DNA from: Candidatus Manganitrophus noduliformans
GTDB taxonomy: Bacteria; Nitrospirota; Nitrospiria; SBBL01; Manganitrophaceae
Direction of reading: 5' to 3'
DNA length: 64,000 bases
Assembly: GCF_012184425.1 (NCBI RefSeq)
Contig: NZ_VTOW01000001.1
Coordinates: 1,488,001-1,552,000, forward strand
Below, piece by piece: positions 8,291 to 32,531 of this stretch. The number at the start of each line of letters is the position of its first letter. Position 1 is the first letter of the stretch. The notes below the pieces were generated by a model. That model saw only the letters and a program-made list of their open reading frames with translations. It had not been told where the DNA came from and did not search any database. A program made the position numbers and the translations under genes.

Positions 8291-8322
8291 TGGACGATCG
8301 ATCCATCACCCCTTCCCTTAAA

Positions 8323-8344
8323 ATCTCTCTTGAGATCCTTTTTA
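8323..8344 (+). terminator. Weak hairpin between convergent pheT and rplT
   Basis: ATCTC-TCTT-GAGAT followed by CCTTTTT lies in the 51-base convergent gap. A second small palindrome, TGATGGA...TCCATCA, spans 8288-8308 and includes the pheT stop. Either could end pheT transcription, but the stems are short. Confidence 0.35.
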
Positions 8345-8701: not shown

Positions 8702-8737
8702 TTTATAACTCCTTCTGTTCTGATTTTCTAAGTGAAA

Positions 8738-8941: not shown

Positions 8942-9462
8942 TTACTCTCCTTTGTTAATTTGGGGATCAAGAGCATCACCATACTGTTCCCCTCCATCCT
9001 CGGGGGATTTTCAGGCGCCCCCACATCCTGGAGTTGCTGTAAGATCTGGGCCATGATCTCCCGTCCTTTTTGCTGATAAGCCATTTCCCTTCCCCGAAAC
9101 ATCAGTGTGGTCTTCACCTTGTTGCCCGAGGAGAGGAAGTCTCTGGCATGTTTTATTTTGAAGTCAAGATCATGCTCCCCCGTGAAGAGTCTGAATTTCA
9201 CCTCCTTGACGTGGGTTCCTTTTTGGTTGAGTTTTGCGGCATGCTCTTTTTTGCTCTGCTCATACTTGTACTTGCCGAAGTCCATGATCCGGCAGACAGG
9301 GGGCGCGGAGGTGGGAGCGACTTCAACCAAATCGAGTCCGTACTCCTCCGCCTTCTTGGTGGCGTCGCGCGACGACATGATTCCCAACTGCTCCCCTTCG
9401 GGGCCGATGACCCGAACTTCTCTTGCCCGGATTTCTAAATTGACCCTTAATTTTGCGACGAT
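8938..9462 (-). CDS. infC: Translation initiation factor IF-3 with AUC start codon
   Basis: IF-3 (174 residues as drawn) binds the 30S subunit and rejects non-canonical initiation codons. The body (MSSRDATKKAEEYGLDLVEV, CRIMDFGKYKYEQ, DLDFKIKHARDFL, FRGREMA) is full length only if the gene extends upstream of the first ATG at 9387. That extension encodes KLRVNLEIRAREVRVIGPEG, the IF-3 N-terminal domain. It begins at ATC (9462-9460), five bases after a perfect AAGGAGG (9474-9468), with no ATG, GTG or TTG that keeps the whole domain. Rare AUU/AUC/AUA starts are a known infC autoregulation device, so I accept AUC. The gene overlaps rpmI by four bases. Confidence 0.93.
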   Translation of the reverse strand: MVAKLRVNLEIRAREVRVIGPEGEQLGIMSSRDATKKAEEYGLDLVEVAPTSAPPVCRIMDFGKYKYEQSKKEHAAKLNQKGTHVKEVKFRLFTGEHDLDFKIKHARDFLSSGNKVKTTLMFRGREMAYQQKGREIMAQILQQLQDVGAPENPPRMEGNSMVMLLIPKLTKESK

Positions 9463-9493
9463 AGAAGCCTCCTTAGATTATTCGTTTGGTCGC

Positions 9494-9524
9494 CGTAAGG
9501 GGCGTATTGCAATACGCCCCTACG
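9494..9524. repeat. GTAGGGG-type palindromic repeat overlapping the thrS stop codon
   Basis: GGGGCGTATTG at 9499-9509 is followed immediately by its reverse complement, ending at 9520, inside the frame CGTA...TACG. The thrS stop (TAG, 9522-9520) lies in the right edge. Related palindromes with the same ends but different cores lie at 50421-50451 and 55162-55216. It may form a hairpin in the thrS-infC spacer of the mRNA. Confidence 0.85.
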
Positions 9525-19559: not shown

Positions 19560-20492
19560 ATGAAATTTTTAATGTGCACCGACGGGGAAGAGTTGGCGGA
19601 AGCGGCGATCCGTTTCGGCGGAAGGCTGGCGAAGGGGATGAATGCCGACGTCAGCGTGCTGCACGTCCGAAGACCGATCTCCTCGTCGGAGCGGGTGCAG
19701 TTGACCGCCACACGTAAGAAGCTGTCGTCGTGGGACCTCGATATTCCCGGCGTCGATTATTTGACCCGGGCGCGGGAAATCTTGGATGAAGTCGGACTCA
19801 CCCAGGTTCCCTTGTCCAAAGAGAAGCACAGCCGGGCCTTTGAGGGAGGGGTCCAGGGGGCGACGGAGCTCTACCTGGTCGGGGCCGGCGGCGAAAACGT
19901 CCGGCTTCGTCTCCGGGAGGGCGATCCGGTCGAGCAGATTTTAGAAGAGGCCCAGGTCGGCGGTTACGACCTGATTATTCTCGGTTCCGGAGGGGGGCGC
20001 GGGATCGGCAGTTATTTCGTCGGAAGCACCGCGCTCCGCGTCGCCGATCTGGCCGCCTGCAGCGTTCTGATCGCGAAGAACATACGGCAGGATCATAACT
20101 TCCTTCTCTGCACCGACGGTTCCGATCTGGCCGAGAAGGCGGAGATTGCGGGGGCCGAGATGGCCCGGGTGTTGGGGGCGAAGGTGACGGTCCTCTCGGT
20201 GGCGGAGGATGAGAGCCGGCGCGAAGAGGCGCTGCAGAGCGCGCGCCGGGCCGAAATGATCTTGGCGCAGATGGGCATTGAAGCGAAATTGAAGGTCCGG
20301 GTCGGTCCTCCTTCGCAAGAGATCATCGCGGAGGCGAAAGACCATGATATCGTCGTCATGGGGGCGAGCGGCAGCTCCGCCGTGAGAAAGTTTTTTCTGG
20401 GGAGTGTTCCTCTGAAGGTGATGGAGTATGGCGCGTGTCCGGTCCTCATCGTCCGGGAAAAGCGAGGAAAAATTCCGCTACAGGCGGGTTGA
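19560..20492 (+). CDS. Tandem universal stress protein (two UspA domains)
   Basis: The 310-residue cytoplasmic protein has two UspA folds. The first (1-180) begins MKFLMCTDGEELAEAAIRF and carries GSGGGRGIGSYFVGSTALRV. The second (about 182-310) begins NFLLCTDGSDLAEKAEIA and carries GASGSSAVRKFFLGSVPLKV. Both match the G-x2-G-x9-G(S/T) ATP-binding pattern. The first domain has an insertion of about 30 residues (DEVGLTQVPLSKEKHSRAFE). It follows the DASS transporter closely and probably modulates it or shares its transcript; no direct evidence shows how. Confidence 0.88.
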   Translation: MKFLMCTDGEELAEAAIRFGGRLAKGMNADVSVLHVRRPISSSERVQLTATRKKLSSWDLDIPGVDYLTRAREILDEVGLTQVPLSKEKHSRAFEGGVQGATELYLVGAGGENVRLRLREGDPVEQILEEAQVGGYDLIILGSGGGRGIGSYFVGSTALRVADLAACSVLIAKNIRQDHNFLLCTDGSDLAEKAEIAGAEMARVLGAKVTVLSVAEDESRREEALQSARRAEMILAQMGIEAKLKVRVGPPSQEIIAEAKDHDIVVMGASGSSAVRKFFLGSVPLKVMEYGACPVLIVREKRGKIPLQAG

Positions 20493-20526
20493 TGAGATCC
20501 GCAATTTAATCAAATAAGGAGACTGT

Positions 20527-20616
20527 ATGTCGCGTGTTGTGAAAAAGAGAAGAAAGAAGATGCGAAAACACAAGTACCGGAAGCTGCGGAAGAGAACGAG
20601 GCATTCCAGGAGATAA
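20527..20616 (+). CDS. 29-residue basic AURKAIP1/COX24-like (bS22-type) protein
   Basis: A perfect AAGGAG five bases before ATG introduces a 29-codon gene whose product is almost entirely Arg/Lys (SRVVKKRRKKMRKHKYRK... ending TRHSRR). The pattern VVKKRRKKM-KHKYRKL is that of the tiny AURKAIP1/COX24-domain proteins, including mycobacterial bS22, which sit in the small ribosomal subunit. It lies between the Usp gene and the mrp promoter. Recognition rests on the motif and basic composition; ribosome binding in this organism is inferred. Confidence 0.85.
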   Translation: MSRVVKKRRKKMRKHKYRKLRKRTRHSRR

Positions 20617-20739
20617 ATCTTCGCCGACCCGGCGAACCTGTCGGATTGGCCAATGAGTGGGTCATCAGGGACGCTGAAGGTCGATGGCAAATCACGCTCC
20701 AGCTTTCCGGACCTCGATTTCGGATCGGATTCTCCCTCT

Positions 20740-20770
20740 TTGACAAACGCGTCTCCGCGTGTGTTATACT
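20740..20770 (+). promoter_or_regulatory. Extended -10 promoter for mrp
   Basis: TTGACA (20740-20745) and TATACT (20765-20770) are separated by 19 bases, and TGT immediately before TATACT gives an extended -10. The mrp start codon is 39 bases downstream. Confidence 0.6.
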
Positions 20771-20808
20771 GAGGAAAAATTTGGCCTTTTTTGGCTGCGG
20801 GAGGAAGT

Positions 20809-21882
20809 ATGGCAATTACCGAAGAGAGAGTGATGAAAGCGCTCAGTCATGTGATTGAGCCGGAGTTGTTCAAGGACATCGTTACCTTGAACATGGTCAA
20901 AGAGGTCCAAGTGAATGGAAACAATGTTTCCTTCACCGTCGTCCTGACGACCCCCGCCTGCCCGCTGAAGGATGAGATCACCCACCGCGCCGAGAAGGCG
21001 TTGCGGCAACACGTTCCGGAGGTCGGCAAGATCGACGTCAACTACACCGCCAACGTGACCGCCGGAAAAAGCCAGGTGAAAGAGAATTTCATCCCGGGGG
21101 TGAAGAATACGATCGCCGTCAGCAGCGGGAAAGGGGGGGTCGGCAAATCGACCGTCAGCGTCAATCTGGCGGTGGCCCTGGCGCAGACCGGCGCCCGGGT
21201 GGGGTTGATGGATGCCGACATCTACGGCCCGAACGTGCCGTTGATGATGGGGATCAAGTCTCCTCCGAAGCCGGAGGGGGAGAAGCTCCTCCCGGCGGAA
21301 AGCCATGGGGTCAAGCTGATCTCGATGGCCTTCTTCGTTCCGGAAGACACCCCGATGATCTGGCGGGGGCCGATGGTCCACGGCGCCATCATGCAGTTCC
21401 TCCGGGATGTGATTTGGGGGGATCTCGATTATCTCCTGGTCGATCTTCCGCCGGGGACCGGCGACGCGCAGCTCTCCATCGCGCAGCTGGTCCCGCTGAC
21501 CGGGGCCGTCATCGTGACGACCCCTCAGGAGGTCGCGCTGCTTGATTCCAAAAAGGGCTTGGCGATGTTCCAGAAGGTTCATGTGCCGGTTCTCGGCATC
21601 GTCGAGAACATGAGCTTCTTCGAATGTCCGCATTGCCATGAGAAGACCGAGATCTTCAGCCGCGGCGGCGGGAAAGCGGCGGCGGAGAAGCTGGGGGTGT
21701 CCTTCTTAGGAGAGGTTCCGATCGATCCGGCCATTCGAGAAGGGGGAGACACCGGCATGCCGATCGTGGTGGCCGATCCGAAGTCCCCTCAGGCCCAGAC
21801 GTTCATGAATATTGCAAAGACACTGGCGGGGCTGATCTCGGTGCGGAATTCGAATGAGATTAAGCTGACGATTATTCAGTAG
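20809..21882 (+). CDS. mrp: Mrp/ApbC Fe-S cluster carrier ATPase
   Basis: The 357-residue protein combines an N-terminal MIP18/DUF59 domain (about 1-90, with LTTPACPLKDEI) and a deviant Walker P-loop ATPase (AVSSGKGGVGKSTVSVNLA, about 104-122; DADIYGPNVP; DYLLVDLPPGTGD). The ECPHCHEKTEIF segment supplies the CxxC pair that bridges a 4Fe-4S cluster in the dimer. It delivers clusters to apo-enzymes in the cytoplasm. GGGAGGAAGT precedes the chosen ATG; an upstream in-frame start at 20791 lacks a binding site. Confidence 0.93.
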   Translation: MAITEERVMKALSHVIEPELFKDIVTLNMVKEVQVNGNNVSFTVVLTTPACPLKDEITHRAEKALRQHVPEVGKIDVNYTANVTAGKSQVKENFIPGVKNTIAVSSGKGGVGKSTVSVNLAVALAQTGARVGLMDADIYGPNVPLMMGIKSPPKPEGEKLLPAESHGVKLISMAFFVPEDTPMIWRGPMVHGAIMQFLRDVIWGDLDYLLVDLPPGTGDAQLSIAQLVPLTGAVIVTTPQEVALLDSKKGLAMFQKVHVPVLGIVENMSFFECPHCHEKTEIFSRGGGKAAAEKLGVSFLGEVPIDPAIREGGDTGMPIVVADPKSPQAQTFMNIAKTLAGLISVRNSNEIKLTIIQ

Positions 21883-21907
21883 AGAAATTTTTCCTTTAAA
21901 AACGAAG

Positions 21908-21940
21908 GCGAGAGGAATTTTCTTCCTCTCGCTTTTTTTT
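21908..21940 (+). terminator. Rho-independent terminator of mrp
   Basis: GCGAGAGGAA (21908-21917) pairs with TTCCTCTCGC (21923-21932) across a 5-base loop, followed by eight T. Confidence 0.92.
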
Positions 21941-22007
21941 GGATGTTCGCATATTCCCCTCCAAGGTCCCTCCCGAATTTATTTGTCCGCCCTTCCTCAA
22001 TTTTTTC

Positions 22008-22115
22008 ATGCCGGACTCGTTTTTCCCGCCGCCCTTCACGGAACGCGAAAAGAGAAAAAAGAATGTCAAAGAAATGTCGGCCATGCTCTGGCGGGAAGTG
22101 ATGCTTGGCCAATAA
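22008..22115 (+). CDS. Possible 35-residue small protein
   Basis: An ATG-started frame encodes 35 residues (MPDSFFPPPFTEREKRKKN... ending WREVMLGQ) and stops 21 bases before a strong terminator hairpin. There is no good ribosome binding site and I do not recognise the sequence. It may be chance, or the tail of a decayed gene at the border of the accessory island. Confidence 0.25.
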   Translation: MPDSFFPPPFTEREKRKKNVKEMSAMLWREVMLGQ

Positions 22116-22136
22116 TCTGATCGATCACAGTTTCGT

Positions 22137-22166
22137 AAGGGCAGGCCGGCGGGCCTGCCCTTTTTT
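22137..22166 (+). terminator. Rho-independent terminator at the island edge
   Basis: AAGGGCAGGCC (22137-22147), loop GGCG, and GGCCTGCCCTT form an 11-bp stem followed by TTTTATTTTTATT. It marks the last core-type sequence before the AT-rich island. Confidence 0.85.
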
Positions 22167-22291
22167 ATTTTTATTGCTGTGTGTTGTTTCCTCGTTTCAG
22201 CCCCCACCTAAGCACCCAACCTTCCTTGACACCTTTTGGCTACGCCGATATCCTTGAATGGGATTTCTGAGTTGAACCGGGTTGTCCCACG

Positions 22292-22410
22292 GTGAGCAGT
22301 GCAGTGGGGAAGTTTGTAGAGATTGGGAAAGGAGGAGAGATTATCAGCCGGTATCAGCGCATTCAGCAACGGCTCCAAAGATGAGTCAAGAGCAGACTGG
22401 ATCCCTTTGG
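22292..22410 (+). pseudogene. 3' remnant of a RAYT transposase (family A) and its right end
   Basis: From GTG 22292 the frame reads VSSAVGKFVEIGKGG then EIISRYQRIQQRLQR and stops at 22384, which is the C-terminal end of a REP-associated tyrosine transposase; nothing of the catalytic part precedes it. Immediately after the stop, GTCAAGAGCAGACT...ATCCC (22385-22405) is the inverse of the left end seen at 28960 (GGGGTCAAGTCTGCTC). The same tail recurs at 24508 and 26220. Confidence 0.75.
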
Positions 22411-22452
22411 ATGGATATTTTTGTGCGGTAGAGAGTAATCAAGGAATTTTTC

Positions 22453-23388
22453 ATGGAATGGCATGAATTATTGATATTTTTGGCGGCTCTTTGGGGAGTT
22501 GGCTGGGTTTTATCTTTAAAAAAAGGTAAACACCCTAGTCAGGAAACTCTTTTTGACCATCAGGGTTGGAGTATTTGGACCGGAATCTGGGTTTTAACTG
22601 GCTTATTAATAGCGTTGTTTCTCGTGTCAGCATTGGGGCTGCTATTGAGGCAATCCACTGTGATCTTCGTCTCTATTCTTTTAGAGTTTTTTATCTTTAG
22701 CAGTATTTTCCTTTTCCCTCAGATAGGTATTTATCAACCTTACAGGGCTTTTGGACTAACTTTAAACCATCTCGGTCCTCGTCTTGTTTTCGGTATGAGG
22801 TGGATCGTTGGATATCTTTTAATTGGACAGGGACTATTTTTACTTTTACTTTTTCTTGAATCACATGGACAACAAGATTTACTGCTGAATCAGGCTACCG
22901 AAGAGAGTTTCGTAGAATTTCTATTTTTCAAAAATGAGTGGGGCATATGGTCATTATGGCTGCCCATCTTTTTTATTGTAATTTTTAGGCCAGTCTTTGA
23001 AGAAATTCTTTTCCGAGGGCTGCTCTATGGTCCAATGAGACAGAAAGTCGGCCCCTTTGTGGCTAGTTTCCTTACCTCATTTTTATTCGCGCTAATACAC
23101 GGTGCAGACTATATACGTCTCTTTGTGTTGGGAATGATCCTTGTTTATTTATATGAGCACGCAAAATCACTGATTCCGAGTATTTTATTTCATGTTGCCA
23201 TGAATCTTATTGATGTTATTTTTTATTTCAAAGGCGATGTTCCAACATCTATTTCTGAACTTAGGATGGAAATAGGTCAAATCTTTTTTGCCTTAGTAAT
23301 ATTTTTCATCATTATTGAAATTGCATATCGTCGGATGAAAAAAAATGGATGCTTTGAAAGATCTTTTAATGAGTATGCGTATAAATAA
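22453..23388 (+). CDS. CPBP-family intramembrane metalloprotease
   Basis: The 311-residue integral membrane protein has about eight hydrophobic segments. It has the three CPBP (CAAX protease/bacteriocin-processing) motifs: FEEILFRGLLYGPM (EExxxR, about 187-200), FALIHG (about 213-218, catalytic His) and FHVAMNLID (about 255-263, His/Asn). Homologues process membrane peptides and several confer self-immunity to bacteriocins. It is the first gene of the island, AT-rich compared with mrp, and has AAGGA upstream of the ATG. It stands alone between RAYT remnants, so its substrate is unknown. Confidence 0.85.
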   Translation: MEWHELLIFLAALWGVGWVLSLKKGKHPSQETLFDHQGWSIWTGIWVLTGLLIALFLVSALGLLLRQSTVIFVSILLEFFIFSSIFLFPQIGIYQPYRAFGLTLNHLGPRLVFGMRWIVGYLLIGQGLFLLLLFLESHGQQDLLLNQATEESFVEFLFFKNEWGIWSLWLPIFFIVIFRPVFEEILFRGLLYGPMRQKVGPFVASFLTSFLFALIHGADYIRLFVLGMILVYLYEHAKSLIPSILFHVAMNLIDVIFYFKGDVPTSISELRMEIGQIFFALVIFFIIIEIAYRRMKKNGCFERSFNEYAYK

Positions 23389-23408
23389 TCACATGAATCA
23401 ATAGTCGC

Positions 23409-23665
23409 GGGGGCGTATCTTTACTTTTGACTTTTTGCCTTACTGAATTAAGCGAGGGGAAATGGCGCGGTCATTGAGGATCAATTATCCGGACGCCCTC
23501 TACCATGTGATTTGCAGGGGCAACGAGCAGAAATCGAATTCCTTGTCTGTTTTATGGTTACAGTCGAGTCAGTGGCGCCCGAGCGGATTTGCAGACGCAA
23601 CCGAAGATCGAAGAAGCGGCAAAACGGATGGAACAATTGCTTGAAAGTAAAAAGTAAAGATGCGA
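23409..23665 (+). mobile_element. Non-autonomous RAYT element (family B), internally deleted copy 1
   Basis: The left end GCGTATCTTTACTTTTGAC (about 23413-23431) is inverted at the right end as GTAAAAAGTAAAGATGCG (about 23646-23663). Inside, MARSLRINYPDALYHV (from 23462) is a RAYT N-terminus and, shifted in frame, QTQPKIEEAAKRMEQLLESK is a RAYT C-terminus. The whole catalytic middle is missing. Copy 2 at 25089 has the same internal junction, so the deleted form itself spread. Confidence 0.75.
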
Positions 23666-23712
23666 GCACGTGCGGATGCAGTCAGTTTGTTAATTTTATG
23701 AGGTACGCTGAA

Positions 23713-24024
23713 ATGGTAATAAAACAATATAAGGTTTTCCTCGCGGGACGGAATTATCTCATGAGGTTTGATGATGAAGTCGAAAAAGTAGGTTTTTTTA
23801 CAACTAGATGGATCGACTCATTCAGTCTCGAAGATGCTAAAAGGCAAGCCATTGAATTAATTAAGAGTGAGCTACAAGACCTTGTATTGAATAAGCATTC
23901 TGATCCCCCAAAGATAATTGTTGAAAGCGTTTCTGTTGTTGATCCTTCCGAGCGTAATCCTTCCCAGGGAGGAGGGTTCACCTGGTATGGAGAAGACGAG
24001 CAAGATGAACGAGGTAATGCCTAA
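23713..24024 (+). CDS. Small cassette protein of unknown function
   Basis: The product (103 residues from ATG 23713) is soluble and begins MVIKQYKVFLAGRNYLMRFD, then has a helix DAKRQAIELIKSELQDLVL and ends in an acidic tail (WYGEDEQDERGNA). I do not recognise it. The start was placed at 23713 because the upstream frame belongs to the decayed RAYT element. Base composition is AT-rich like the other island genes. It is a single gene between a family-B element and a family-A end fragment; a role as an orphan immunity or accessory protein is only a guess. Confidence 0.6.
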   Translation: MVIKQYKVFLAGRNYLMRFDDEVEKVGFFTTRWIDSFSLEDAKRQAIELIKSELQDLVLNKHSDPPKIIVESVSVVDPSERNPSQGGGFTWYGEDEQDERGNA

Positions 24025-24047
24025 TCCACAAAGTGAAGGGATTTGTC

Positions 24048-24062
24048 GAAGGGGTCAAGTCT
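24048..24062 (+). repeat. Family-A left-end fragment
   Basis: GAAGGGGTCAAGTCT matches the outermost bases of the family-A RAYT left end at 28957 and 29020. It lies between two unrelated cassette genes. Confidence 0.5.
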
Positions 24063-24075
24063 TTTAAGGAGTGGT

Positions 24076-24381
24076 ATGGCAAGGAATAAAAAAAGCAAAA
24101 GGGAAATTCGACTTATAACTGATTATTCAGTTCAGAACTATCGATGTGGTCTTAAAGGGGGAGATCAGGTTCGGTTGAGGAAAGACATCCGGGTAAGAGA
24201 TCATAGGGGACATTTTACGGGTAATCGTTATCTTTCTGGGGAGGTCTGGACTGTACTGCCAGGTTCAATAGAAGAGCCTAACATTGTTTGGTTTCGCCAG
24301 GCTAATGGGGAGCGCCACACTTGGGATGATGATCCAGCGCTCTTCGAGACATTTGAGCTAATTAAAACACGGGGAAAGTAA
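24076..24381 (+). CDS. Small basic cassette protein of unknown function
   Basis: AAGGAG four bases upstream supports ATG 24076, giving 101 residues. The protein starts MARNKKSKREIRLITDYS and contains KGGDQVRLRKDIRVRDHRG and GEVWTVLPGSIEEPNIVWFR, which suggests a small beta-barrel (SH3-like) fold, then ends ALFETFELIKTRGK. No family is recognised with confidence. It is a one-gene cassette that ends 14 bases before the signal-peptide/YD fragment. Size and lack of partners would suit an immunity or adaptor protein, which is unproven. Confidence 0.6.
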   Translation: MARNKKSKREIRLITDYSVQNYRCGLKGGDQVRLRKDIRVRDHRGHFTGNRYLSGEVWTVLPGSIEEPNIVWFRQANGERHTWDDDPALFETFELIKTRGK

Positions 24382-24395
24382 GTTCAAAAATCATT

Positions 24396-24572
24396 ATGCC
24401 TAAAGTGCTAATCACTTTCCTAATCGTACTTCTTGCGGCTTCCCTCGCCCACGCTGAGCAGCGCTACTTCTACGACAGCTTGGGACAGCTGGCGGCGGAG
24501 AGGAGGCGAGATTGTCAGCCGGTATCGGCGCATTCAGCAACGGCTCCAAAGATGAACCAAGAGCAGACTTGA
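24396..24572 (+). CDS. Truncated secreted YD-repeat (Rhs-like) start fused to a RAYT tail, copy 1
   Basis: The 58-codon frame starts with a signal peptide (MPKVLITFLIVLLAASLAHA) followed by EQRYFYDSLGQL, the first unit of a YD/RHS repeat. It then runs out of frame into the family-A RAYT C-terminal sequence and stops. The RAYT tail itself (EIVSRYRRIQQRLQR, 24508-24555) is in another frame and is followed by the element end AAGAGCAGACTTGACCCC. A near-identical fusion lies at 26116, so this is a repeated composite remnant rather than a functional gene, though it could still be expressed and secreted. Confidence 0.6.
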   Translation: MPKVLITFLIVLLAASLAHAEQRYFYDSLGQLAAERRRDCQPVSAHSATAPKMNQEQT

Positions 24573-24582
24573 CCCCCTAGAC
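24508..24582 (+). mobile_element. Family-A RAYT 3' tail and right end
   Basis: The frame EIVSRYRRIQQRLQR and stop (24508-24555) is followed by GAGCAGACTTGACCCC, the inverse of the family-A left end. It has the same arrangement as 22292-22410 and 26220-26295. Confidence 0.7.
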
Positions 24583-24716
24583 GGGTATTTGCATCATTTT
24601 CCTGATATGAACCTGGATCTACCGTTTCTCCAATGTGGACGAAAATGCTAACCTCGTCTCGCTCTGACATTGGAAGAATCTAAAAGATACTTCATGCTGA
24701 TTAGTAGGAGCTACTG

Positions 24717-25079
24717 ATGGAAACCGAGAAAGAAAAAGAATTCAACAGGATAGTCAAAGAATGGGAGGAAACCATTCTGGCTCCTTGGCACGAGGAGCTT
24801 TCTCAGAAGTTGAGTAAACTGGAGCATAGCGCACTTTACTCATCTATTCCACACTGTTTTAGAAACTTTTATGAAATATACTATGAAATTTTGCCAGCAT
24901 TGCTTCAAACTCCGACGGATGACTATGAAAAAATACATGATCGTATTTATGATATTGGAGGAGTTAGCGGAGCACTACAAGAGATTAAAATGCACATCGT
25001 AGATGCAGAGGAAGCTTTTAATACCCTGCTCAAGTTGCTAGCTGAAAAAGGAGAAAGGGGAGAGTCGGCTAAAACTTAA
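24717..25079 (+). CDS. Small helical cassette protein of unknown function
   Basis: TAGGAG precedes the ATG. The 120-residue product is charged and predicted largely helical: METEKEKEFNRIVKEWEETI, YSSIPHCFRNFYEIYYEILP, and an amphipathic HIVDAEEAFNTLLKLLAEKG near the end. There is no signal peptide or membrane segment. I do not recognise a family. It sits alone between a family-A tail and a family-B element and ends ten bases before the latter. Orphan immunity protein is one possibility, without direct evidence. Confidence 0.6.
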   Translation: METEKEKEFNRIVKEWEETILAPWHEELSQKLSKLEHSALYSSIPHCFRNFYEIYYEILPALLQTPTDDYEKIHDRIYDIGGVSGALQEIKMHIVDAEEAFNTLLKLLAEKGERGESAKT

Positions 25080-25088
25080 TCGTGTGAT

Positions 25089-25348
25089 CGGACGTATCTT
25101 TACTTTTGACTTTTTGAATTGAGGGAGCATGGCGCGGTCATTGAGGATTAATTATTCGAATCCCCTCTACCATGTGACTTTCAGGGGCAACGAGCAGAAA
25201 TCGAATTCCTTGTCTGTTTTATGGTTACAGTCGAGTCAGTCGCGCCCGAGCGGATTTGAAGCGGTGGATGCAGACGCAACCGAAGATCGAAGAAGCGGCA
25301 AAACGGGTGGAGCAATTGCTTGAAAGTAAAAAGTAAAGATGCGACCCC
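25089..25348 (+). mobile_element. Non-autonomous RAYT element (family B), internally deleted copy 2
   Basis: It has the same inverted ends as copy 1 (left GACGTATCTTTACTTTTGAC; right GTAAAAAGTAAAGATGCG) and the same internal structure: MARSLRINYSNPLYHV from 25129, then the shared junction GGGGCAACGAGCAGAAATCG, then the RAYT C-terminal QTQPKIEEAAKRVEQLLESK. This copy keeps 12 bases before the C-terminal part that copy 1 lacks. Confidence 0.75.
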
Positions 25349-25364
25349 ATGCGAATTCAACCCC

Positions 25365-26063
25365 ATGCGAATTTGGGTGATTGTTTTTATCTCTATTTTT
25401 GGGTTTTATCTGATGATTGGAACCTCCTCGGCAAAGACTCTTTCAAAGGAAGAGGTTGAAGCGACTTGGGAGGAGCTACTTCGAAAAGAGGAATACAGAA
25501 TAATAGAGTATCTCAACAGAAAATATTTGAAGCCAACGACCGATATGCTTAGCAATGACAAAACAATCTTTGTTCGCGAAGGGAGAGAGGGCTTCCTTTG
25601 GGGATTCTTTGGTCTATCTGAGGGAGGGGGATGGGATATCGAAGGGCGCTTAGAAGCGGAGGTTAGTATTGAAAAAGGTATATTACAACTTTATTCTAAA
25701 AAAACTATAAAAAGATCTCCTGGCTTTATGTTCCCTCCTATTGGGGCTATAGAGCCTACGTATGACCGAGAAAAATACCCAATCTGGGAATTCCGTCTCA
25801 TTTTACGGAACCTTGATAATCGCCAACAGATTCAAACGCTCAAATCAATCCCTGTACCAGCAACTGAAGTGCTTCAGCATCTGAGCTACAAGTTTAATCC
25901 GGATGATCCTTCCTGTCCTCTAGGACAGCGTTGTCCACGTGGTGAGCTTCACTATGATGCCAGTCGAAATGTTGTTGTCGAGATTCTAGGCATTCGTGAC
26001 CCATTCAATGTTGAAGTTCCCTTGCCTGAGTCTTCTGCACCGATGCAAGAGGAAAAGCAGTGA
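25365..26063 (+). CDS. Exported cassette protein of unknown function
   Basis: From ATG 25365 the 232-residue product has a signal peptide (MRIWVIVFISIFGFYLMIG, cut near TSSA). The mature part has KTIFVREGREGFLWGFFGLS, GRLEAEVSIEKGILQLYS and PIWEFRLILRNLDNRQQI, which look like beta strands. It has a single Cys pair in DPSCPLGQRCPRGEL. No family recognised. The frame upstream of 25365 is element B sequence, so this start is preferred. It is followed after about 50 bases by the second YD fragment. Confidence 0.6.
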   Translation: MRIWVIVFISIFGFYLMIGTSSAKTLSKEEVEATWEELLRKEEYRIIEYLNRKYLKPTTDMLSNDKTIFVREGREGFLWGFFGLSEGGGWDIEGRLEAEVSIEKGILQLYSKKTIKRSPGFMFPPIGAIEPTYDREKYPIWEFRLILRNLDNRQQIQTLKSIPVPATEVLQHLSYKFNPDDPSCPLGQRCPRGELHYDASRNVVVEILGIRDPFNVEVPLPESSAPMQEEKQ

Positions 26064-26115
26064 CCGTCGAGAAATGGGTCTGTGTAGCCATAGAAAGTAA
26101 TATTCGGAACCCGTT

Positions 26116-26286
26116 ATGCTAAAAGCACCAATAACCTTTCTAGCCGTATTTCTTATTTCTTCCCTCGCCCACGCCGAGCAGCGCTACTTCTACGACAGCT
26201 TGGGACAGGCGGAGAGGAAGAGAGATTGTCAGCCGGTATCGGCGCATTCAGCAAAGGCTCCAAAGATGAGCCAAGAGCAGACTTGA
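26116..26286 (+). CDS. Truncated secreted YD-repeat (Rhs-like) start fused to a RAYT tail, copy 2
   Basis: This 56-residue frame repeats copy 1 at 24396: signal peptide MLKAPITFLAVFLISSLAHA, then EQRYFYDSLGQ, then the out-of-frame RAYT tail. The signal-peptide codons have diverged more than the YD part, and the flanks upstream of ATG are unrelated. The RAYT tail frame EIVSRYRRIQQRLQR ends at 26267 and is followed by AAGAGCAGACTTGACCCC. Confidence 0.6.
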   Translation: MLKAPITFLAVFLISSLAHAEQRYFYDSLGQAERKRDCQPVSAHSAKAPKMSQEQT

Positions 26287-26295
26287 CCCCTTTGA
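26220..26295 (+). mobile_element. Family-A RAYT 3' tail and right end
   Basis: It encodes EIVSRYRRIQQRLQR plus stop (26220-26267), then the right end GAGCAGACTTGACCCC. This is the third copy of the tail in 4 kb. Confidence 0.7.
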
Positions 26296-26321
26296 CTAAA
26301 TTAATATGGAGGAGAGCCACA

Positions 26322-27155
26322 TTGAGTAGTTTTTCAAAGGGTTTTGTTTTGGATTTGAAGAGGTATCCTACGTGGTCACTTATTTATCACAGACCTTTGC
26401 CTCTACGTGATGTTATAGATATGTTGAAAGAACATTTAGATGGAAAGTTCATCGTAATCCACAAAGGCGAATTCTATGGGGGTCAGGATCACAGCAATAA
26501 CCTCCGACAGGTATTCGAAAAAAAAGGTATTTCTTTTAAAACATTGCGACAAGGCAGTGTGGTTTTAAGCTTTCAAGAATTTCAGCGAATGGAGAAGCGC
26601 CTTAGAAGAGAGATATCAGGTGGAGACTTAGAGTGGTTTGACTGTGATTTTGAGCCGACAGCTGAAATTAAAACGAGACTTAATATTCACAACCTCAGGT
26701 TTTCATATGAAAAGGAACCAGTAGTGCCCTCAGGGTTGGGTGCAAGTGTTAGCTATCATTCGCATGACGATGAGTTTACGGGGATGTATGTGCGCAACAG
26801 AAGATTAGGGGCAGCTATCATTGAGAGACTCATTACCCGCGTGGCGAAAAAGGAGTTAAAACGACTGGCCAAGAAGATGAAGCCCTCTTATTCTCCGGTT
26901 CTTGCTACCATGACACAAAAAACACTGAGTTCCTTAAGATCAATGATTATGAAAGAAGGTATTACCTGCTTACGGCACGATATCCAACTGAAAGATGATG
27001 AGTTGATTATGACTTGCTGGCAAGGTTTTCCAGAACGAGCGGGTATTTACAACAGATCATTCGATATATGCTATTCGTTCAAAAAAGAAGAATGGCATAC
27101 GACTAGAGCCAAGTCGATCCGTTTCCCATATAGCAATGCGAAACTATTCCCATAG
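26322..27155 (+). CDS. Cassette protein of unknown function
   Basis: The product (277 residues from TTG 26322, preceded by GGAGGAG) is soluble. Segments include GKFIVIHKGEFYGGQDHSNN, SFQEFQRMEKRLRREISGG, a His/Asp-rich YHSHDDEFTGMYVRNRRLG and RVAKKELKRLAKKMKPSYSP. No catalytic motif that I can name is evident. The gene is AT-rich and stands between a family-A right end and a family-A left end, the only cassette in the island flanked by family-A ends on both sides in that order. Function unknown. Confidence 0.6.
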   Translation: MSSFSKGFVLDLKRYPTWSLIYHRPLPLRDVIDMLKEHLDGKFIVIHKGEFYGGQDHSNNLRQVFEKKGISFKTLRQGSVVLSFQEFQRMEKRLRREISGGDLEWFDCDFEPTAEIKTRLNIHNLRFSYEKEPVVPSGLGASVSYHSHDDEFTGMYVRNRRLGAAIIERLITRVAKKELKRLAKKMKPSYSPVLATMTQKTLSSLRSMIMKEGITCLRHDIQLKDDELIMTCWQGFPERAGIYNRSFDICYSFKKEEWHTTRAKSIRFPYSNAKLFP

Positions 27156-27183
27156 TTCTGTTGAAATAGTTCTGAAACAATAG

Positions 27184-27213
27184 AAGAGGGTCAAGTCTGT
27201 TCACGGCTCAACT
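27184..27213 (+). repeat. Family-A left-end fragment
   Basis: GAGGGTCAAGTCTGTTCACGGCTCAAC matches the family-A left end with two or three changes. It lies between cassette genes, with no transposase behind it. Confidence 0.6.
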
Positions 27214-27226
27214 ATATATAGGTCAA

Positions 27227-27769
27227 ATGAATCATCTTCGAATGCAATACTACCTATTTATTATTCTTATCTGTGTCTGGAGTCTGGTAGGTTGTTCAGT
27301 GAGCCCGAAACCAAGTCCAGAAGAATTAAAAACAGCAATTGAATTAGAAATTGCACCCACAATGCCGAAGTTTCTTGCTAGCGATCGACTCTTTCACATC
27401 AAGATTCTTTTTAAGAATCTCTCGCCGTATACCGTGTGGCTCAATAGAGGATACAATTACTCTCCCTCTCTTTCTGATCTGAATGTGGATGCTGTTTCCC
27501 CAAGTGGGAAGTCAATTCCTCAACCGATTCGTTTCGAACCGCGGAGACCTGACTTAAATAAACAAGACTTTGTAAAAGTCCAAGGCGGCCAAACATTCGA
27601 GGCGTTTGAAGATGTCCGGTGGCTCTACCTATCTACAAAGGAAACTGGAACATATAAGATCACAGCTACTTATAAGAACAATCATACTGGTAAAGAGTTT
27701 GGTGTAGATGCCTGGATAGGGGAGGTGAAATCTAATACAGCTACATTTGAAGTGGTTTCAGATCATTAA
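27227..27769 (+). CDS. Putative lipoprotein with Ig-like fold
   Basis: The 180-residue product has a type II signal peptide (YYLFIILICVWSLVGC, lipobox LVGC with Cys at residue 23). The mature part reads like a single immunoglobulin-type beta-sandwich: FHIKILFKNLSPYTVWLN, then VKVQGGQTFEAFEDVRWLYL and TYKITATYKN. ATG at 27242 is an alternative start. Lipid-anchored, probably periplasmic. Family not recognised. It is a single-gene cassette between family-A and family-B end fragments. Confidence 0.65.
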   Translation: MNHLRMQYYLFIILICVWSLVGCSVSPKPSPEELKTAIELEIAPTMPKFLASDRLFHIKILFKNLSPYTVWLNRGYNYSPSLSDLNVDAVSPSGKSIPQPIRFEPRRPDLNKQDFVKVQGGQTFEAFEDVRWLYLSTKETGTYKITATYKNNHTGKEFGVDAWIGEVKSNTATFEVVSDH

Positions 27770-27808
27770 AGGGAAGGAGTGCAGAAGTAGAAGGGAAAGT
27801 GCAGATAA

Positions 27809-27851
27809 GGGGGGTCGTATCTTTACTTTTGATTTTTTGAATTGAGGGAGC
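27809..27851 (+). repeat. Family-B left-end fragment
   Basis: GGTCGTATCTTTACTTTTGA and the following TTTTTTGAATTGAGGGAGC match the left ends of the two family-B elements. The transposase start has been lost. Confidence 0.65.
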
Positions 27852-27946
27852 TGTGGATTCCAGGAACTTCAGGACATTGGCATCGTACTCGAATCCCTGG
27901 CCCAAGAGGACCTTTGTGGTAAATGGTCCCGGAGAGAGAAGAATTT

Positions 27947-28384
27947 ATGGATGTTAGTAAAGAAAACAAAGAAATTGTTTTAAACGCAATACACGATTGG
28001 TTATCAAGTTTACCCCTAGGTGTCGTCGATGTTAAGGAAGAGCATGGAGAATACGAATCCGTAGTGAAGATTAAGCCTTTTAAGAGCAAGGCAAGCCCTC
28101 TGGAATTTAGGATTGGAAACTATGGGACATTTGACGTGGCTATGGGAATGGGAATGCAGTTTAATGAGATTCCAATATCTGTTGATAAAGTAATCGACAT
28201 ATGTAAGTCAGTCGCAAGTGGACGAATTAAAGAACAAGTATGGATATCAAAAAATAAATGTGTCCGGTCAAATGGGGAATTAGAGCTTTCGTCTGGTCGG
28301 TGGTCGGATCGTGGGTCTAATTCTTGGAGAGGGATTCTGGGAATAGGGAAGAAACAATTCATTGAGTATGAGCCATATATTTAG
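27947..28384 (+). CDS. Small cassette protein of unknown function
   Basis: From ATG 27947 (purine-rich GGAGAGAGAAG upstream) the product has 145 residues. It starts MDVSKENKEIVLNAIHDWLS and continues with beta-like VKEEHGEYESVVKIKPF and EFRIGNYGTFDVAMGMGMQ, then a helix VDKVIDICKSVASGRIKEQV. Size, single domain and acidic beta-alpha pattern are like many polymorphic-toxin immunity proteins, but I cannot assign a family. An alternative in-frame start is at 27923. Confidence 0.6.
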   Translation: MDVSKENKEIVLNAIHDWLSSLPLGVVDVKEEHGEYESVVKIKPFKSKASPLEFRIGNYGTFDVAMGMGMQFNEIPISVDKVIDICKSVASGRIKEQVWISKNKCVRSNGELELSSGRWSDRGSNSWRGILGIGKKQFIEYEPYI

Positions 28385-28461
28385 CCCTTTAGTGAAGCCG
28401 AGTTGGGTCAGCTTGTCCCCTTTTTTCAGATACGTCATGATCATTTGCCGTAATCTTATTT

Positions 28462-28887
28462 ATGAAAATTTATAAATTATCAAAAATAATTTTGGTTTTT
28501 AATTTTTCCGTTTTAGGTTTGGCAACGCTTTTCTGGATATTTGTTGCCATTTCTGAACTGACTAGATCTTCATCAGGTCTAACGGAGAGGGGATTTACGG
28601 TTTTTGGTCTGCTTGCGTTATTGTGGGTATGGTGGGGATATTTAAAGATACCCTATGAAATTAAAATTTATGATCATAATTCTATAGAATTCCGAAGTTT
28701 CCTTAAGCGAACGGTTATTTCTCCACATGAGATTAAAAGCATCAAAGGAGTTTATTTGAGCTATGGTTTTATAAGGCTTCGCTATTCTAGAGGGGCAATA
28801 CAGTTGATTAATAAGATGGATGGTTTCTACGATTTTATTTCTACTATTAAATCGATTAATCCCACAGTTGAGTGCAAAAATTGTTAG
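28462..28887 (+). CDS. Small membrane protein with a PH-like C-terminal domain
   Basis: The 141-residue protein has two membrane segments (about 9-30 and 46-62) followed by a cytoplasmic beta-rich part (YEIKIYDHNSIEFRSFLKRT, then VISPHEIKSIKGVYLSYGFI, RYSRGAIQLI) that resembles bacterial PH domains. It ends VECKNC. The gene is very AT-rich with ATG directly after CTTATTT and no strong binding site. Function unknown; single-gene cassette. Confidence 0.65.
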   Translation: MKIYKLSKIILVFNFSVLGLATLFWIFVAISELTRSSSGLTERGFTVFGLLALLWVWWGYLKIPYEIKIYDHNSIEFRSFLKRTVISPHEIKSIKGVYLSYGFIRLRYSRGAIQLINKMDGFYDFISTIKSINPTVECKNC

Positions 28888-28956
28888 TGTCTCATTCGGG
28901 GATGATAGAAACCCCCTCGCCTTTAGGCGAAGAGAAGATGAGAGTATGAGAGAGAA

Positions 28957-29050
28957 GGGGGTCAAGTCTGCTCATGGCTCAACTTTAGCCATCACGAAGG
29001 TGAAGAGAGGATATCAAGAAGGGGTCAAGTCTGCCCTTGGCTCAACTTTT
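28957..29050 (+). repeat. Tandem family-A left ends
   Basis: Two direct copies of about 60-65 bases begin GGGGTCAAGTCTGCTCATGG (28960) and GGGGTCAAGTCTGCCCTTGG (29021), each followed by CTCAACTTT...ATCA-GAAG-GAAGAGAGGAT. They precede the RAYT start at 29088. The duplicated end is the inverse of the right ends at 22385, 24560 and 26270. Confidence 0.7.
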
Positions 29051-29087
29051 AGTCATCATGAAGTCGAAGAGAGGATAAAACGATTCG

Positions 29088-29345
29088 TATGTCCCGACCC
29101 CTGCCCATAGAGTTCCCCGGCGCCTACTACCACCTGATGAACCGAGGCTAAAGCGTGTCTTCAGGCCGTGATGCGCGTGTATGGGAAGAGCGAAGCAGAG
29201 ATAAAGCGGAGTCGGCGGGGCGAGCGGAATGAGGCGCGGGCAATTGCAATCTACTGTGCCGGAGACTGGCAGGGATGAGGCAGGGGGAAATTGCAGCAGC
29301 CTTTGGAGTGTCGGGTTATTCAGCGGTGAGCAGTGCCTGATGGAA
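29088..29345 (+). pseudogene. Decayed RAYT transposase (family A)
   Basis: ATG at 29088 begins MSRPLPIEFPGAYYHLMNR and stops after 20 codons. Further on, in shifted frames, MRVYGKSEAEIKRSRRGERN, ARAIAIY, CRRLAGMRQGEIAAAFGV and YSAVSSA match the C-terminal helix-turn-helix part of RAYT proteins, with a frameshift between AIY and CRR. The catalytic His-x-His and Tyr region is gone. RAYTs are single-strand transposases related to IS200/IS605. This is the most complete family-A copy here and is clearly dead. Confidence 0.75.
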
Positions 29346-29387
29346 AGACCGTTCCAGGAGGGTATTAAATGGCACAGGGGTTTCTAG

Positions 29388-29777
29388 ATGGATAAGCCAA
29401 TGTCTCCAATTTTCGTTGTTGAAGATCTTGATATTGGAATTTTTAAGTCGGTGGAGGATACCGAATTACAACTTGAGCCGATTGACGTTAAGAAAGGAAG
29501 TTACAAAGCATATGATGCCAAAGGGAGGCTTCTTAAACTAGAAACAGATCGGAAACGAGTGAAAATTAGTTTGGCTGAGATTCAACCCAGCCATGCGGGT
29601 GATTTTGAAGTTGCTATTAGAGAATTCTTAAAGGCAATGGATGAAACGAAAGCCTATGACCGAGAGAGTGACTTACCCTCTCTTGTCGAAGCCTGCCAAA
29701 AGTATATTCACACAGTCAAAAGACCAAAGGATCTCCCTGCTGAAGCTTGGGGCAGGTTTATCAACCATCTTCGTTAG
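29388..29777 (+). CDS. Small acidic cassette protein, immunity-like
   Basis: The 129-residue product starts MDKPMSPIFVVEDLDIGIFK and has LEPIDVKKGSYKAYDAKGRL, LKLETDRKRVKISLAEI and a helical C-terminus (LVEACQKYIHTVKRPKDLP). The layout 'LEPIDV...Y.AYDA.GRLL.LETD' is one I associate with small proteins encoded beside Rhs or other polymorphic toxins, from memory only. No toxin gene lies upstream in this window. It is the last cassette of the island and is followed by a family-A fragment near 29805. Confidence 0.6.
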   Translation: MDKPMSPIFVVEDLDIGIFKSVEDTELQLEPIDVKKGSYKAYDAKGRLLKLETDRKRVKISLAEIQPSHAGDFEVAIREFLKAMDETKAYDRESDLPSLVEACQKYIHTVKRPKDLPAEAWGRFINHLR

Positions 29778-29829
29778 TCGGGGTCATTAGTATAGAGAAG
29801 GGGTCAAGTTGAGCGACCCCCTTTTTTAC

Positions 29830-29862
29830 AAAAAGCGGGAGGTTTCCTCCCGCTTTTTGTTT
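29830..29862. terminator. Bidirectional terminator closing the island
   Basis: AAAAAGCGGGAGG (29830-29842) and CCTCCCGCTTTTT (29846-29858) are perfect 13-base arms around TTT, with T or A runs on both sides. It ends the island on the plus strand and the TPR operon on the minus strand. GGGGTCAAGTTGAGC just before it (29806) is a last family-A scrap. Confidence 0.9.
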
Positions 29863-31035
29863 TTAAGGAGCGGCGGCCGGTTGTTCCGAGGGCGAGGAAG
29901 CGGCGGCCCGTTTTGCAGCGATTTTCCGTTGCAGCTCGGCAAGGTGGCGAAGATCGGCCAGCTGCTTCTTCACCTCCGGAAAGTGAGGCCGGCGCTCCAG
30001 CACCTTCTCGAAATTGACGATCGCCTCAGGCACCTTTCCCATATCGTTATAGACGTATCCCAGGTGGTAATAAGCTTCCCAGTCTTCGGGACGGAGCGGA
30101 ATGGAGGCTTCTAGGACTTCCGCTGCGCGGGGCCTCTGTCCGTTAAAGCTGAGGGCCCATCCGAGCAACTGATAAGCTTCGTAAGTCGGACGATTTTCCA
30201 CAATCGGATTAAGAATGGCGATTCCATCCGCATAGTGGCCGCTGACGTTCAAGGCGCCTGCGACGCTTAATGCATAGGCATCATCGGCTGGATAAATTTT
30301 AATGTATTCCTGCGCGGCAGCGCTCGCCTCCTTCCAGCGTTCATGATCGAGATAGAAATTGATCAGTTTCCTCCAGGCTGCCGTCGCCGTAGGAGAAAGC
30401 GCGAGGGCTTCACGGCTGTATTTTTCTTCGTTCCGCTCAATTTTTACGATCCACGGGATACGCAAAAAACCGCGGCGGCTCTGCACGACAACGGACTCTC
30501 CTCCCCATAATTTTTTTGCTTCGTCCCACCTGAGTAAAAGACGGGTGACCGATTCGGAATTGCTAGCCGATTTCAGGTTTGCCCATCGAAGCGGAATCGG
30601 GATATCGAGTTGGATCTCTCCTAAAGTAATGGTTTCAATCTCCGCGACCTGATCGATCCGTGGTGATGTATCGAGCTTCGCGTTCAGGTAAAGGAGGAGG
30701 CTGTAATAGATGAAGACCCGAAGCATCAAGGCGGTTCCCTGTTCGATTACGCGAAGGGTGGAATAAAACGGAGAATGGGTATGGCTGTTGGAGAAGAGAT
30801 GTTTTAAGAAAAAAAAGAGGCTGAGGAGACCGATGGCGGTCCCGATCCAGGGGATGAGAAGAAAGAGAAGACGGCTCGGGACACGATAGGACATCTGGAC
30901 GATGAGGGCCCAATAGCAAACGAAAACCAAAAGGGCATGCTTCAAGGTCACCCGGTTCCAAAGTCGTCCCCAGAATCTCCACCAAACCTTCCCCCAGATC
31001 TTTCCCCAAATCGCGCGGAGCCACAATAGAATCAT
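29863..31035 (-). CDS. Membrane-anchored TPR protein
   Basis: The 390-residue protein has an N-terminal aromatic, basic stretch and three or four hydrophobic segments (about 33-53, 58-80 and 100-120). A central domain of unknown type follows (QLDIPIPLRWANLKS, WDEAKKLWGGESVVVQSRRG), then about four to five TPR units from about residue 205 (e.g. EAYQLLGWALSFNGQRPRAA, EAYYHLGYVYNDMGKVPEAI). It ends in an Ala/Pro-rich tail. Its start overlaps the stop of the other TPR gene by ATGA, so they form a translationally coupled pair and probably one membrane complex. Confidence 0.75.
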   Translation of the reverse strand: MILLWLRAIWGKIWGKVWWRFWGRLWNRVTLKHALLVFVCYWALIVQMSYRVPSRLLFLLIPWIGTAIGLLSLFFFLKHLFSNSHTHSPFYSTLRVIEQGTALMLRVFIYYSLLLYLNAKLDTSPRIDQVAEIETITLGEIQLDIPIPLRWANLKSASNSESVTRLLLRWDEAKKLWGGESVVVQSRRGFLRIPWIVKIERNEEKYSREALALSPTATAAWRKLINFYLDHERWKEASAAAQEYIKIYPADDAYALSVAGALNVSGHYADGIAILNPIVENRPTYEAYQLLGWALSFNGQRPRAAEVLEASIPLRPEDWEAYYHLGYVYNDMGKVPEAIVNFEKVLERRPHFPEVKKQLADLRHLAELQRKIAAKRAAASSPSEQPAAAP

Positions 31036-32531
31036 TCCGTCGACCTCCCGGCGGGAAGATTGGCCATGGCGTATGAGAGAAGATGTTCCGCCAAGGCGTT
31101 GCGCGGATCTTCGGAAAGAACGGCATTGAGGCAGGAGACGGCCTCTGCGAAGTTCGACATCCGATGATAAAGGGTGCAGAGATTCGTCAGCATTTTGGAG
31201 CGGTCATATCCGAGCTGGAACGCCGTTTCGTAAGCTACAATCGCCTCCGGATACCGCTGTTCCTTCTGATATAAGGTGGCCAGACCGATATAAGCTTTCG
31301 GCCGTCGGGGGTCGATCGACAATGCGGTTTGATAGGCCTCGGTGGCCTCTTCGGTTCTCCCCAATTCGTTCAAAGTAAATCCAATCGCCTCGTAGAAGCG
31401 GGGGTTGTCCGGCTCCAGTTGCTGTCCTCGTCGAAAGTATTCCAGCGCTTGTTCCCGGTTTCCGATCATTCCGGAGAGATATCCCGCCCGATCGAGCAGG
31501 GTGACATTGTCCGGTTGTCCTCTGAGGAAGTGCTCGGCGAGTAGGAGGGCTTGATGGTAGTCACCGATCTTTTCCGTGAGAAAGGAACTCAACGCATCGG
31601 CGTAAAATTCATCTTTAGGCGCTTTGAGGTACGCTTCGCGTGTCATCCGGTATTCGTTGGCGAGATCGCCTCGGTCGGAGTAGACCTGGGCTGCGCGTCG
31701 GTGTGCTTCGGCATTGTAGGGGTTGGTCTCGATCGCTTTGAGGAAGGAGGCGAGCGCCTCTTCGTTTTTTCTGTTCTTGAATGCAATCACCCCCAGTGTC
31801 AGGTAGGCATCGTCGGGACGGTCCCCCACATCAATCGCCCACTTTGCATAGGAGATCGCCTTTCTTTCATTCGACGAATCATAAATGCGCAAGTAGCGAT
31901 AAAGATGCGCGATGAGACCGAGGGGGCGCTCCCATCTCGGAAGCTCGGTCAACTCTCCAGTCGTCTTCAATGCCCAAAGAAACGAGGTAATGCGATCTTC
32001 GGTGTTCGGGGTTCGCAAGGCACGGTTGAGGAGGTCGATCGCCTCCGGATAGGCGCCTCCCTTCGCTCGAGCGACGGCGGAGAGGAGAAGGGCGTCGAAT
32101 TGGTCGCTCTCCCTGCGAAGGAGCTGATCGAAATGTCGGAGCGCTCCGTCGAGGGCGCCTCGTTCGAGGGCGATCTCACCCAGATTTAAAAGCGGGTGGA
32201 TATTCGACGGATCTTTTTCCAGCGCGTCACGGGAGAGCGATTCGGCCGTTTCGAGATCACCGCGCATGAGCGCATCCCAGGCCGGGTCGGACGTCTCTTC
32301 TTCCGCATAAATTTCTCGAAGGAGGGATCGATATGTTTCCGCGGCCGCACGATAATGGCCGATCTCGTAGAGAACCAACCCTTTTGTTCCTGAGAGAGAG
32401 GAATGAAAAAAACGCCCGTCCATCTGTGAGAAATGGCCGTAGATCATGCTCCAAATCACAACGAAGCAGAGGGCTGTAATGACCTGCGATTGAACGCTCA
32501 TGTTTTTCGGAAAGAAAGGAATTTTCCCCAT
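31032..32531 (-). CDS. TPR-repeat protein with N-terminal membrane anchor
   Basis: From ATG 32531 the product has 499 residues. One hydrophobic segment (VITALCFVVIWSMIYGHF) near the N-terminus anchors it, and the rest is ten or more TPR units, for example HPLLNLGEIALERGALDGAL, DAYLTLGVIAFKNRKNEEAL, RFYEAIGFTLNELGRTEEAT and KAYIGLATLYQKEQRYPEAI. It probably scaffolds an envelope complex. Upstream in-frame codons extend to 32579 and an ATG at 32498 is another option; none has a strong binding site. Coupled with the downstream TPR gene. Confidence 0.75.
   Translation of the reverse strand: MGKIPFFPKNMSVQSQVITALCFVVIWSMIYGHFSQMDGRFFHSSLSGTKGLVLYEIGHYRAAAETYRSLLREIYAEEETSDPAWDALMRGDLETAESLSRDALEKDPSNIHPLLNLGEIALERGALDGALRHFDQLLRRESDQFDALLLSAVARAKGGAYPEAIDLLNRALRTPNTEDRITSFLWALKTTGELTELPRWERPLGLIAHLYRYLRIYDSSNERKAISYAKWAIDVGDRPDDAYLTLGVIAFKNRKNEEALASFLKAIETNPYNAEAHRRAAQVYSDRGDLANEYRMTREAYLKAPKDEFYADALSSFLTEKIGDYHQALLLAEHFLRGQPDNVTLLDRAGYLSGMIGNREQALEYFRRGQQLEPDNPRFYEAIGFTLNELGRTEEATEAYQTALSIDPRRPKAYIGLATLYQKEQRYPEAIVAYETAFQLGYDRSKMLTNLCTLYHRMSNFAEAVSCLNAVLSEDPRNALAEHLLSYAMANLPAGRSTE

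Follow-up and report, generated by a model that had tools for sequence, protein, structure and literature searches.

The question raised by this locus is why, in a Candidatus Manganitrophus (Nitrospirota) genome, a row of seemingly unrelated single genes should alternate with pieces of transposable elements. The window analysed is a 64-kb stretch of a 5.17-Mb genome (G000), within which the 7.7 kb between mrp and the TPR operon hold ten AT-rich genes (w1–w10), all on the + strand, at positions 22453–29777 (Table 1). Read from the DNA together with a repeat table and an open reading frame table, the order is A tail, w1, B, w2, A end, w3, YD+A tail, w4, B, w5, YD+A tail, w6, A end, w7, B end, w8, w9, A ends with a broken RAYT, w10 and A scrap, A and B being two RAYT families. 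The original prediction, made from the sequence of this stretch, had given exactly this order, and its description of AT-rich same-strand genes alternating with RAYT-A and RAYT-B fragments is confirmed, with ten genes in place of "nine or so". The GC content of the array genes is 0.398 compared with 0.580 in the flanks. All ten open frames are intact and none of the ten element blocks overlaps a gene, the genes covering 5256 of 7663 bp and the gene-to-gene gaps of 51–500 nt being occupied by element fragments. A 25-nt pattern for the A end (at most three mismatches) was detected five times in the window and the B end three times, in each case entirely within the array and with 0.00 expected by chance. 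Every element lies in the orientation of the genes, both here and in a second array found in the congener G003; this uniformity may be due to duplication, to selection for expression or to an insertion preference.

Table 1. Features of the array and its left flank (positions in the window)
Feature	Position	Strand	Remark
mrp	20815..21882	+	left flank; upstream of the Rhs locus or array in G000, G003 and G005
RAYT-A 3' part and right end	22272..22411	+	homologous copy at the same place in G003
w1, CPBP/Rce1-like membrane protein	22453..23388	+	Pfam PF02517
B element, RAYT-B start joined to RAYT-B end, inverted ends	23409..23668	+	
w2, 107-aa soluble protein	23701..24024	+	
RAYT-A left end, truncated	24040..24062	+	
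w3, 101-aa protein	24076..24381	+	
YD leader (5' end of YD/IPT gene) fused to RAYT-A right end	24383..24578	+	
w4, 120-aa protein	24717..25079	+	no homolog found
Second B element	25088..25350	+	91% identical to first B element, same internal break
w5, exported protein	25365..26063	+	
YD leader fused to RAYT-A right end	26103..26292	+	
w6, 277-aa protein	26322..27155	+	
RAYT-A left end	27182..27216	+	~10 nt 5' of w7
w7, lipoprotein-like protein	27227..27769	+	
RAYT-B left end	27811..27851	+	
w8, 144-aa protein	27950..28384	+	start uncertain, ORF opens at 27923; no homolog found
w9, 141-aa membrane protein	28462..28887	+	no homolog found
Two tandem RAYT-A left ends	28953..29340	+	second runs into RAYT-A gene with internal deletion and stops
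w10, 129-aa protein	29388..29777	+	
RAYT-A left-end scrap	29795..29812	+	

Judged from its sequence, A is a RAYT with inverted ends. The N-terminal 36 aa of A resemble those of many full-length Y1 transposases of the RAYT type from the class, with up to 78% identity, and an intact 321-aa relative was found in a groundwater Nitrospirae genome (L141) with both ends present, namely an A-type left end about 60 nt 5' of the start codon and an inverted right end 3' of the stop. B is classed as a RAYT on its RAYT-type start (MARSLRINY) and inverted ends only. In NCBIfam searches the A and B pieces were too short to match. No intact A- or B-type RAYT was detected in the six genus genomes searched, and in G000 only an IS200-type TnpA and one remnant were found in place of an intact matching RAYT. 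The third repeated piece, YD, had also been counted among the transposase fragments; it corresponds instead to the start of an IPT/TIG-domain gene (hereafter the YD/IPT gene), covering its signal peptide and first YD motif; in intact Rhs loci of relatives this gene comes after the immunity-type gene. The internal break is identical in all copies of the YD/A-tail junction and likewise in both complete B elements, which argues that these units have been duplicated and that part of the repetition is not independent insertion.

To place the array in its genomic context, the same locus was compared in congeners. A full-length Rhs/YD-repeat polymorphic toxin lies at the mrp–osmC locus of G002 and G005, with Rhs cores (PF05593) detected between mrp/mprF and osmC at E-values of 4e-107 and 1e-102, respectively. 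In G005, the Rhs gene (2166 aa) comes directly after mrp. A 76-aa membrane gene starts 2 nt beyond it, and a RAYT-A end, a membrane gene with an in-frame fusion to a RAYT N-terminus, the YD/IPT gene and an exported gene then lead up to osmC. In G002, the Rhs gene (2207 aa) is followed 19 nt later by a homolog of w7 (69% aa identity) and then by the YD/IPT gene, the exported gene and osmC. Alignment of the two Rhs proteins showed that they are alike up to DPxGL with unrelated tips beyond it; the tip of G002 has the motif HExxH and weakly matches Tox-MPTase2 (E 0.1). At the locus of G004 neither an Rhs gene nor an array is present. In the window itself, no match to an Rhs core or tip was found in 22000–30000, the YD leader being the only such remnant, and a search of the array spacers for toxin scraps gave nothing significant.

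Homologs of the array genes were sought in two class-wide searches and in plasmid searches, and for seven of the ten gene families they were found at Rhs genes elsewhere: those of w1, w2, w3, w6, w7 and w10 lie immediately downstream of an Rhs gene or overlap it, and those of w5 lie in Rhs loci. In G060 (L113), a 2401-aa Rhs gene and a w6 homolog overlap at the stop of the former, and a w10 homolog on a Methylomonas plasmid has a 1-nt overlap with the stop of a gene for an RHS-core protein. Two w3 homologs lie close to Rhs genes, one overlapping the stop of its neighbour in G065 (L109) and one 467 nt downstream of its neighbour in G173 (L116); six of the eight w3 homologs are not beside a recognised Rhs gene. 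In G086 (L147), a w2 homolog sits between an Rhs ORF, which it follows directly, and a second Rhs piece; outside the genus, most w2 homologs have no recognised Rhs gene next to them. In G015 (L108), a w1-like CPBP gene overlaps the end of an Rhs tip gene and is followed by a YD/IPT gene, the match being distant (27% identity) and within a large family; a search of the genome contigs gave no further w1 relatives in G000. By the Rhs gene of the same G015 locus there are also two w5 homologs (53–57% identity), upstream of the Rhs piece, and two further w5 homologs lie beside short Rhs-like genes (L111, L112). As genomes of the genus contain one to about five Rhs loci, this adjacency should lie far above that expected for random genes, an argument made from the locus counts. 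With homologs of seven of the ten at Rhs toxin loci, the genes are not a random set.

For w4, w8 and w9 no homologs were found in the class-wide searches, in which the concatenated queries scored few candidates per genome, so that their absence is weak evidence. Among the array genes the CPBP family alone was significant in Pfam and NCBIfam, and a search of solved structures with w7 and w5 profiles returned no match. A structure model of w7 was of low confidence (pLDDT 53), yielded nothing and was not used. The spacer before w4 (24579–24716) can be read as ending in CGRKC, which loosely resembles the GRK ends of Rhs tips and is without support.

Immunity genes usually sit directly after a polymorphic toxin. 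With seven of ten genes having homologs at Rhs loci, orphan immunity genes explain the array better than a random set does, and the array is very probably made up of heterogeneous orphan-immunity (polyimmunity) genes as the remnant of an Rhs (YD-repeat) polymorphic-toxin locus. The low GC of the genes relative to the flanks, a property of displaced rhs tips as well (Jackson et al., 2009; PMC2935791), agrees with this reading. A decaying genomic island, in which unrelated genes with no common function were acquired horizontally and RAYTs inserted incidentally, would account for AT-rich genes that mostly lack a family assignment and for the many broken elements. However, the ten open frames are intact, w7 and its relatives are under purifying selection (dN/dS of 0.11–0.20 in the family), seven families recur at Rhs genes and congeners carry an Rhs locus at the very same site, which makes such an island highly improbable.

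Another reading is that the array genes are displaced toxin tips instead of immunity genes, as enterobacterial rhs genes accumulate displaced tips downstream (Jackson et al., 2009; PMC2935791). This is the least probable of the explanations considered. Every array gene has its own start, the homologs are separate genes placed after complete Rhs tips (gaps of 19, 2, −38 and −23 nt) and no Rhs core is left before the array genes. Several of the products are, moreover, membrane proteins or lipoproteins, as immunity proteins often are.

An indication of how an orphan-immunity array may have arisen comes from G003, where about twelve genes occupy the corresponding site and are again bounded by the A, B and YD ends. 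Just one of the ten window genes, w7, is common to both arrays (63% aa identity). With the same ends at the same locus and nearly all genes different, the contents turn over like cassettes. The G003 array contains homologs of genes found downstream of the toxins of both G002 and G005; both of the G005 toxin-downstream genes are represented, in the same order and with an A end between them. Directly 5' of the w7 homolog, G003 also retains 146 nt of the 3' end of a G002-type toxin tip, frameshifted (79.5% identity, E 1e-27). This scrap indicates that at least this unit of G003 was once a toxin-immunity pair, the toxin of which has since been lost.

From these loci a sequence of events can be proposed. 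In the intact loci of the genus, an Rhs core with an exchangeable toxin tip is followed by the immunity-type gene, the YD/IPT gene, the exported gene and osmC. Each exchange would have brought in a new tip with its immunity gene and shifted the old pair downstream. Toxin parts would later have been lost and the immunity genes kept, presumably because they are still useful against kin carrying the old toxin. At the window locus the whole Rhs core would also have been lost. Two RAYT families would have entered the locus, decayed and been copied along with the units, and the RAYT ends and YD leader now at the joints may have offered homology for recombination or may mark sites of toxin deletion. 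We infer that the array genes neutralise toxins, as well as the succession of steps and whatever part the RAYT ends may have played. The RAYT debris would then represent scars, and perhaps homology arms.

A more active part for the RAYTs had been put forward in the original prediction, namely repeated gene capture or recombination through their ends. In a cassette system of this kind, single genes would be captured and moved by the RAYT ends and would build up into an array with no integrase involved. Such a system would fit the strict alternation of genes and ends with no gene interrupted, the common orientation of all elements in both arrays, the different contents and shared ends of G000 and G003, and the outer edge of the A left end, which is sharp and preceded by unrelated DNA. 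The comparison with relatives did not reveal a shared gene order with elements at unrelated points, the outcome named in advance as counting against the cassette idea. However, the same families occur as tip/immunity pairs at the Rhs loci of G002, G015, G060 and G065 without RAYT ends, no intact A or B RAYT was found in the six genomes searched, the shared YD/A-tail and B junctions indicate duplication, and the first breakpoint between G000 and G003 lies about 30 bp beyond the A end. A search for further copies of the ends next to orphan genes in the rest of the genome had been proposed as a check; the A, B and YD sequences are nearly confined to the array locus in G000, with few and short matches to the A and B ends outside it, and the end sequences are nearly confined to this locus in G003 and G005 as well. 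A RAYT-mediated cassette system is therefore considered very unlikely, and the original reading is only partly supported: the turnover of contents stands, and RAYT ends as its engine are not supported.

Between a cassette system and inert debris lies the suggestion that RAYTs were active builders, in that insertion at the boundary, or recombination between ends, cut toxins away precisely to the start codon of the immunity gene and left a RAYT leader behind. An A left end occupies the place of the toxin immediately before w7 in the window, and in G003 one stands in place of the Rhs gene before the homolog of a G005 downstream gene. RAYT insertion and deletion at the toxin/immunity boundary fits these positions; recombination between copies or plain deletion would produce the same picture. 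The active role is regarded as unlikely, if less so than the cassette system. If true, RAYT ends would serve as a permanent means of converting toxin-immunity loci into arrays of immunity genes alone.

The orphan-immunity array was also compared with known systems. Polyimmunity loci consist of unrelated same-strand immunity genes with no toxin genes between them, and their content varies even between close relatives (Zhang et al., 2012; PMC3482391). The window array shares these features: several of its unrelated, same-strand genes have homologs located after toxin genes, none of the genes between them encodes a toxin, and the content differs between G000 and G003. It differs in having RAYT fragments and YD leaders between its genes, with gaps of 51–500 nt that are larger than usual, short gaps being typical in the source and not required. 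It is also without a XerC/D-type recombinase and comes from Nitrospirota, a phylum outside those in which the survey saw extended loci (some proteobacteria, bacteroidetes, firmicutes and actinobacteria only). In Rhs tip displacement, a core carries an exchangeable tip with older modules in an AT-rich downstream region, and homologous recombination has been proposed as the mechanism (Jackson et al., 2009; PMC2935791). The core with a variable tip exchanged after DPxGL is found intact in the congeners, and the AT-rich downstream region with older modules is likewise similar; here, however, immunity genes are kept and toxin parts almost wholly removed, and neither G000 nor G003 has an Rhs core at the locus. 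In Vibrio cholerae T6SS clusters, orphan immunity gene arrays have arisen as effector-immunity pairs were added one after another, old effectors being lost and their immunity genes retained (Kirchberger et al., 2017; PMC5361080). The retention of immunity genes after toxin loss is similar, whereas the present locus has no T6SS cluster, no active effector at the head of the array and junctions that carry transposon ends.

With RAYT elements the locus shares the inverted ends of A and its intact relative in L141, but in the window there are only fragments, concentrated between immunity-type genes. REP families, unlike these fragments, are typically scattered over a genome. Integron cassettes are similar in being single same-strand genes between short repeats with contents that turn over. 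They were dropped as an explanation. No tyrosine integrase was recognised among the ORFs of 20000–32500, and the repeated sequences consist of transposon ends and a gene leader in place of attC sites.

Rhs tip displacement, polyimmunity loci and immunity arrays formed by displacement are already established. A search of the literature available found no paper joining RAYTs with Rhs and immunity, and a polyimmunity array punctuated by RAYT ends, and one in Nitrospirota, appears to be undescribed. The build-up of orphan immunity genes with vanishing toxins has so far mostly been inferred from its end products. In this genus, intact Rhs loci can be compared with an intermediate that keeps a toxin scrap and with two divergent arrays at a single chromosomal site, the joints having recognisable ends, so that a few more genomes would allow the succession of steps to be tested. 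The array would extend polyimmunity arrays to Candidatus Manganitrophus (Nitrospirota), and it supplies candidate immunity families that lack a family assignment.

The second array at this locus, in the congener G003, contains two tandem membrane genes, r7 and r8, which are paralogs (41% identity) and each have an end of the RAYT-A transposase family standing 5'. Each gene with its A end is one copy of a unit duplicated within this array. In another family of the class, homologs of r7/r8 lie beside a homolog of the array gene w10, so that members of two different arrays, that of the window (w10) and that of G003 (r7/r8), are joined at one site. A tyrosine recombinase gene is located about 2 kb from these homologs, and no recognised Rhs gene was detected at the site.

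Positions of the features described
Feature	Location	Strand
r7 and r8	L030:7000-7700	
w10 and r7/r8 homologs	L120 (G039:C1) 8180-9522	
Facing RAYT-A ends	G000:C2:699095-699193 (L037:5096-5194)	
B-like element	G000:C1:1583825-1583988 (L035:5826-5989)	
RAYT-A/membrane protein fusion	L030:6250-6582 and L031:7538-7882	minus (L031)

Elsewhere in the M. noduliformans genome (G000), a REPIN-like pair of RAYT-A ends was found face to face with about 50 nt between them. The remnant of a broken Y1 transposase lies at a distance of roughly 1 kb from the pair. A B-like element was also present directly upstream of a restriction endonuclease-like gene, with NADH dehydrogenase genes nearby.

A small membrane protein was found to carry the first ~34 residues of RAYT-A as an in-frame fusion in two species. 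The fusion is intact in each species, with 79% amino acid identity and a dN/dS of about 0.30 between the two. The RAYT N-terminus looks as if it has been co-opted in this membrane protein.
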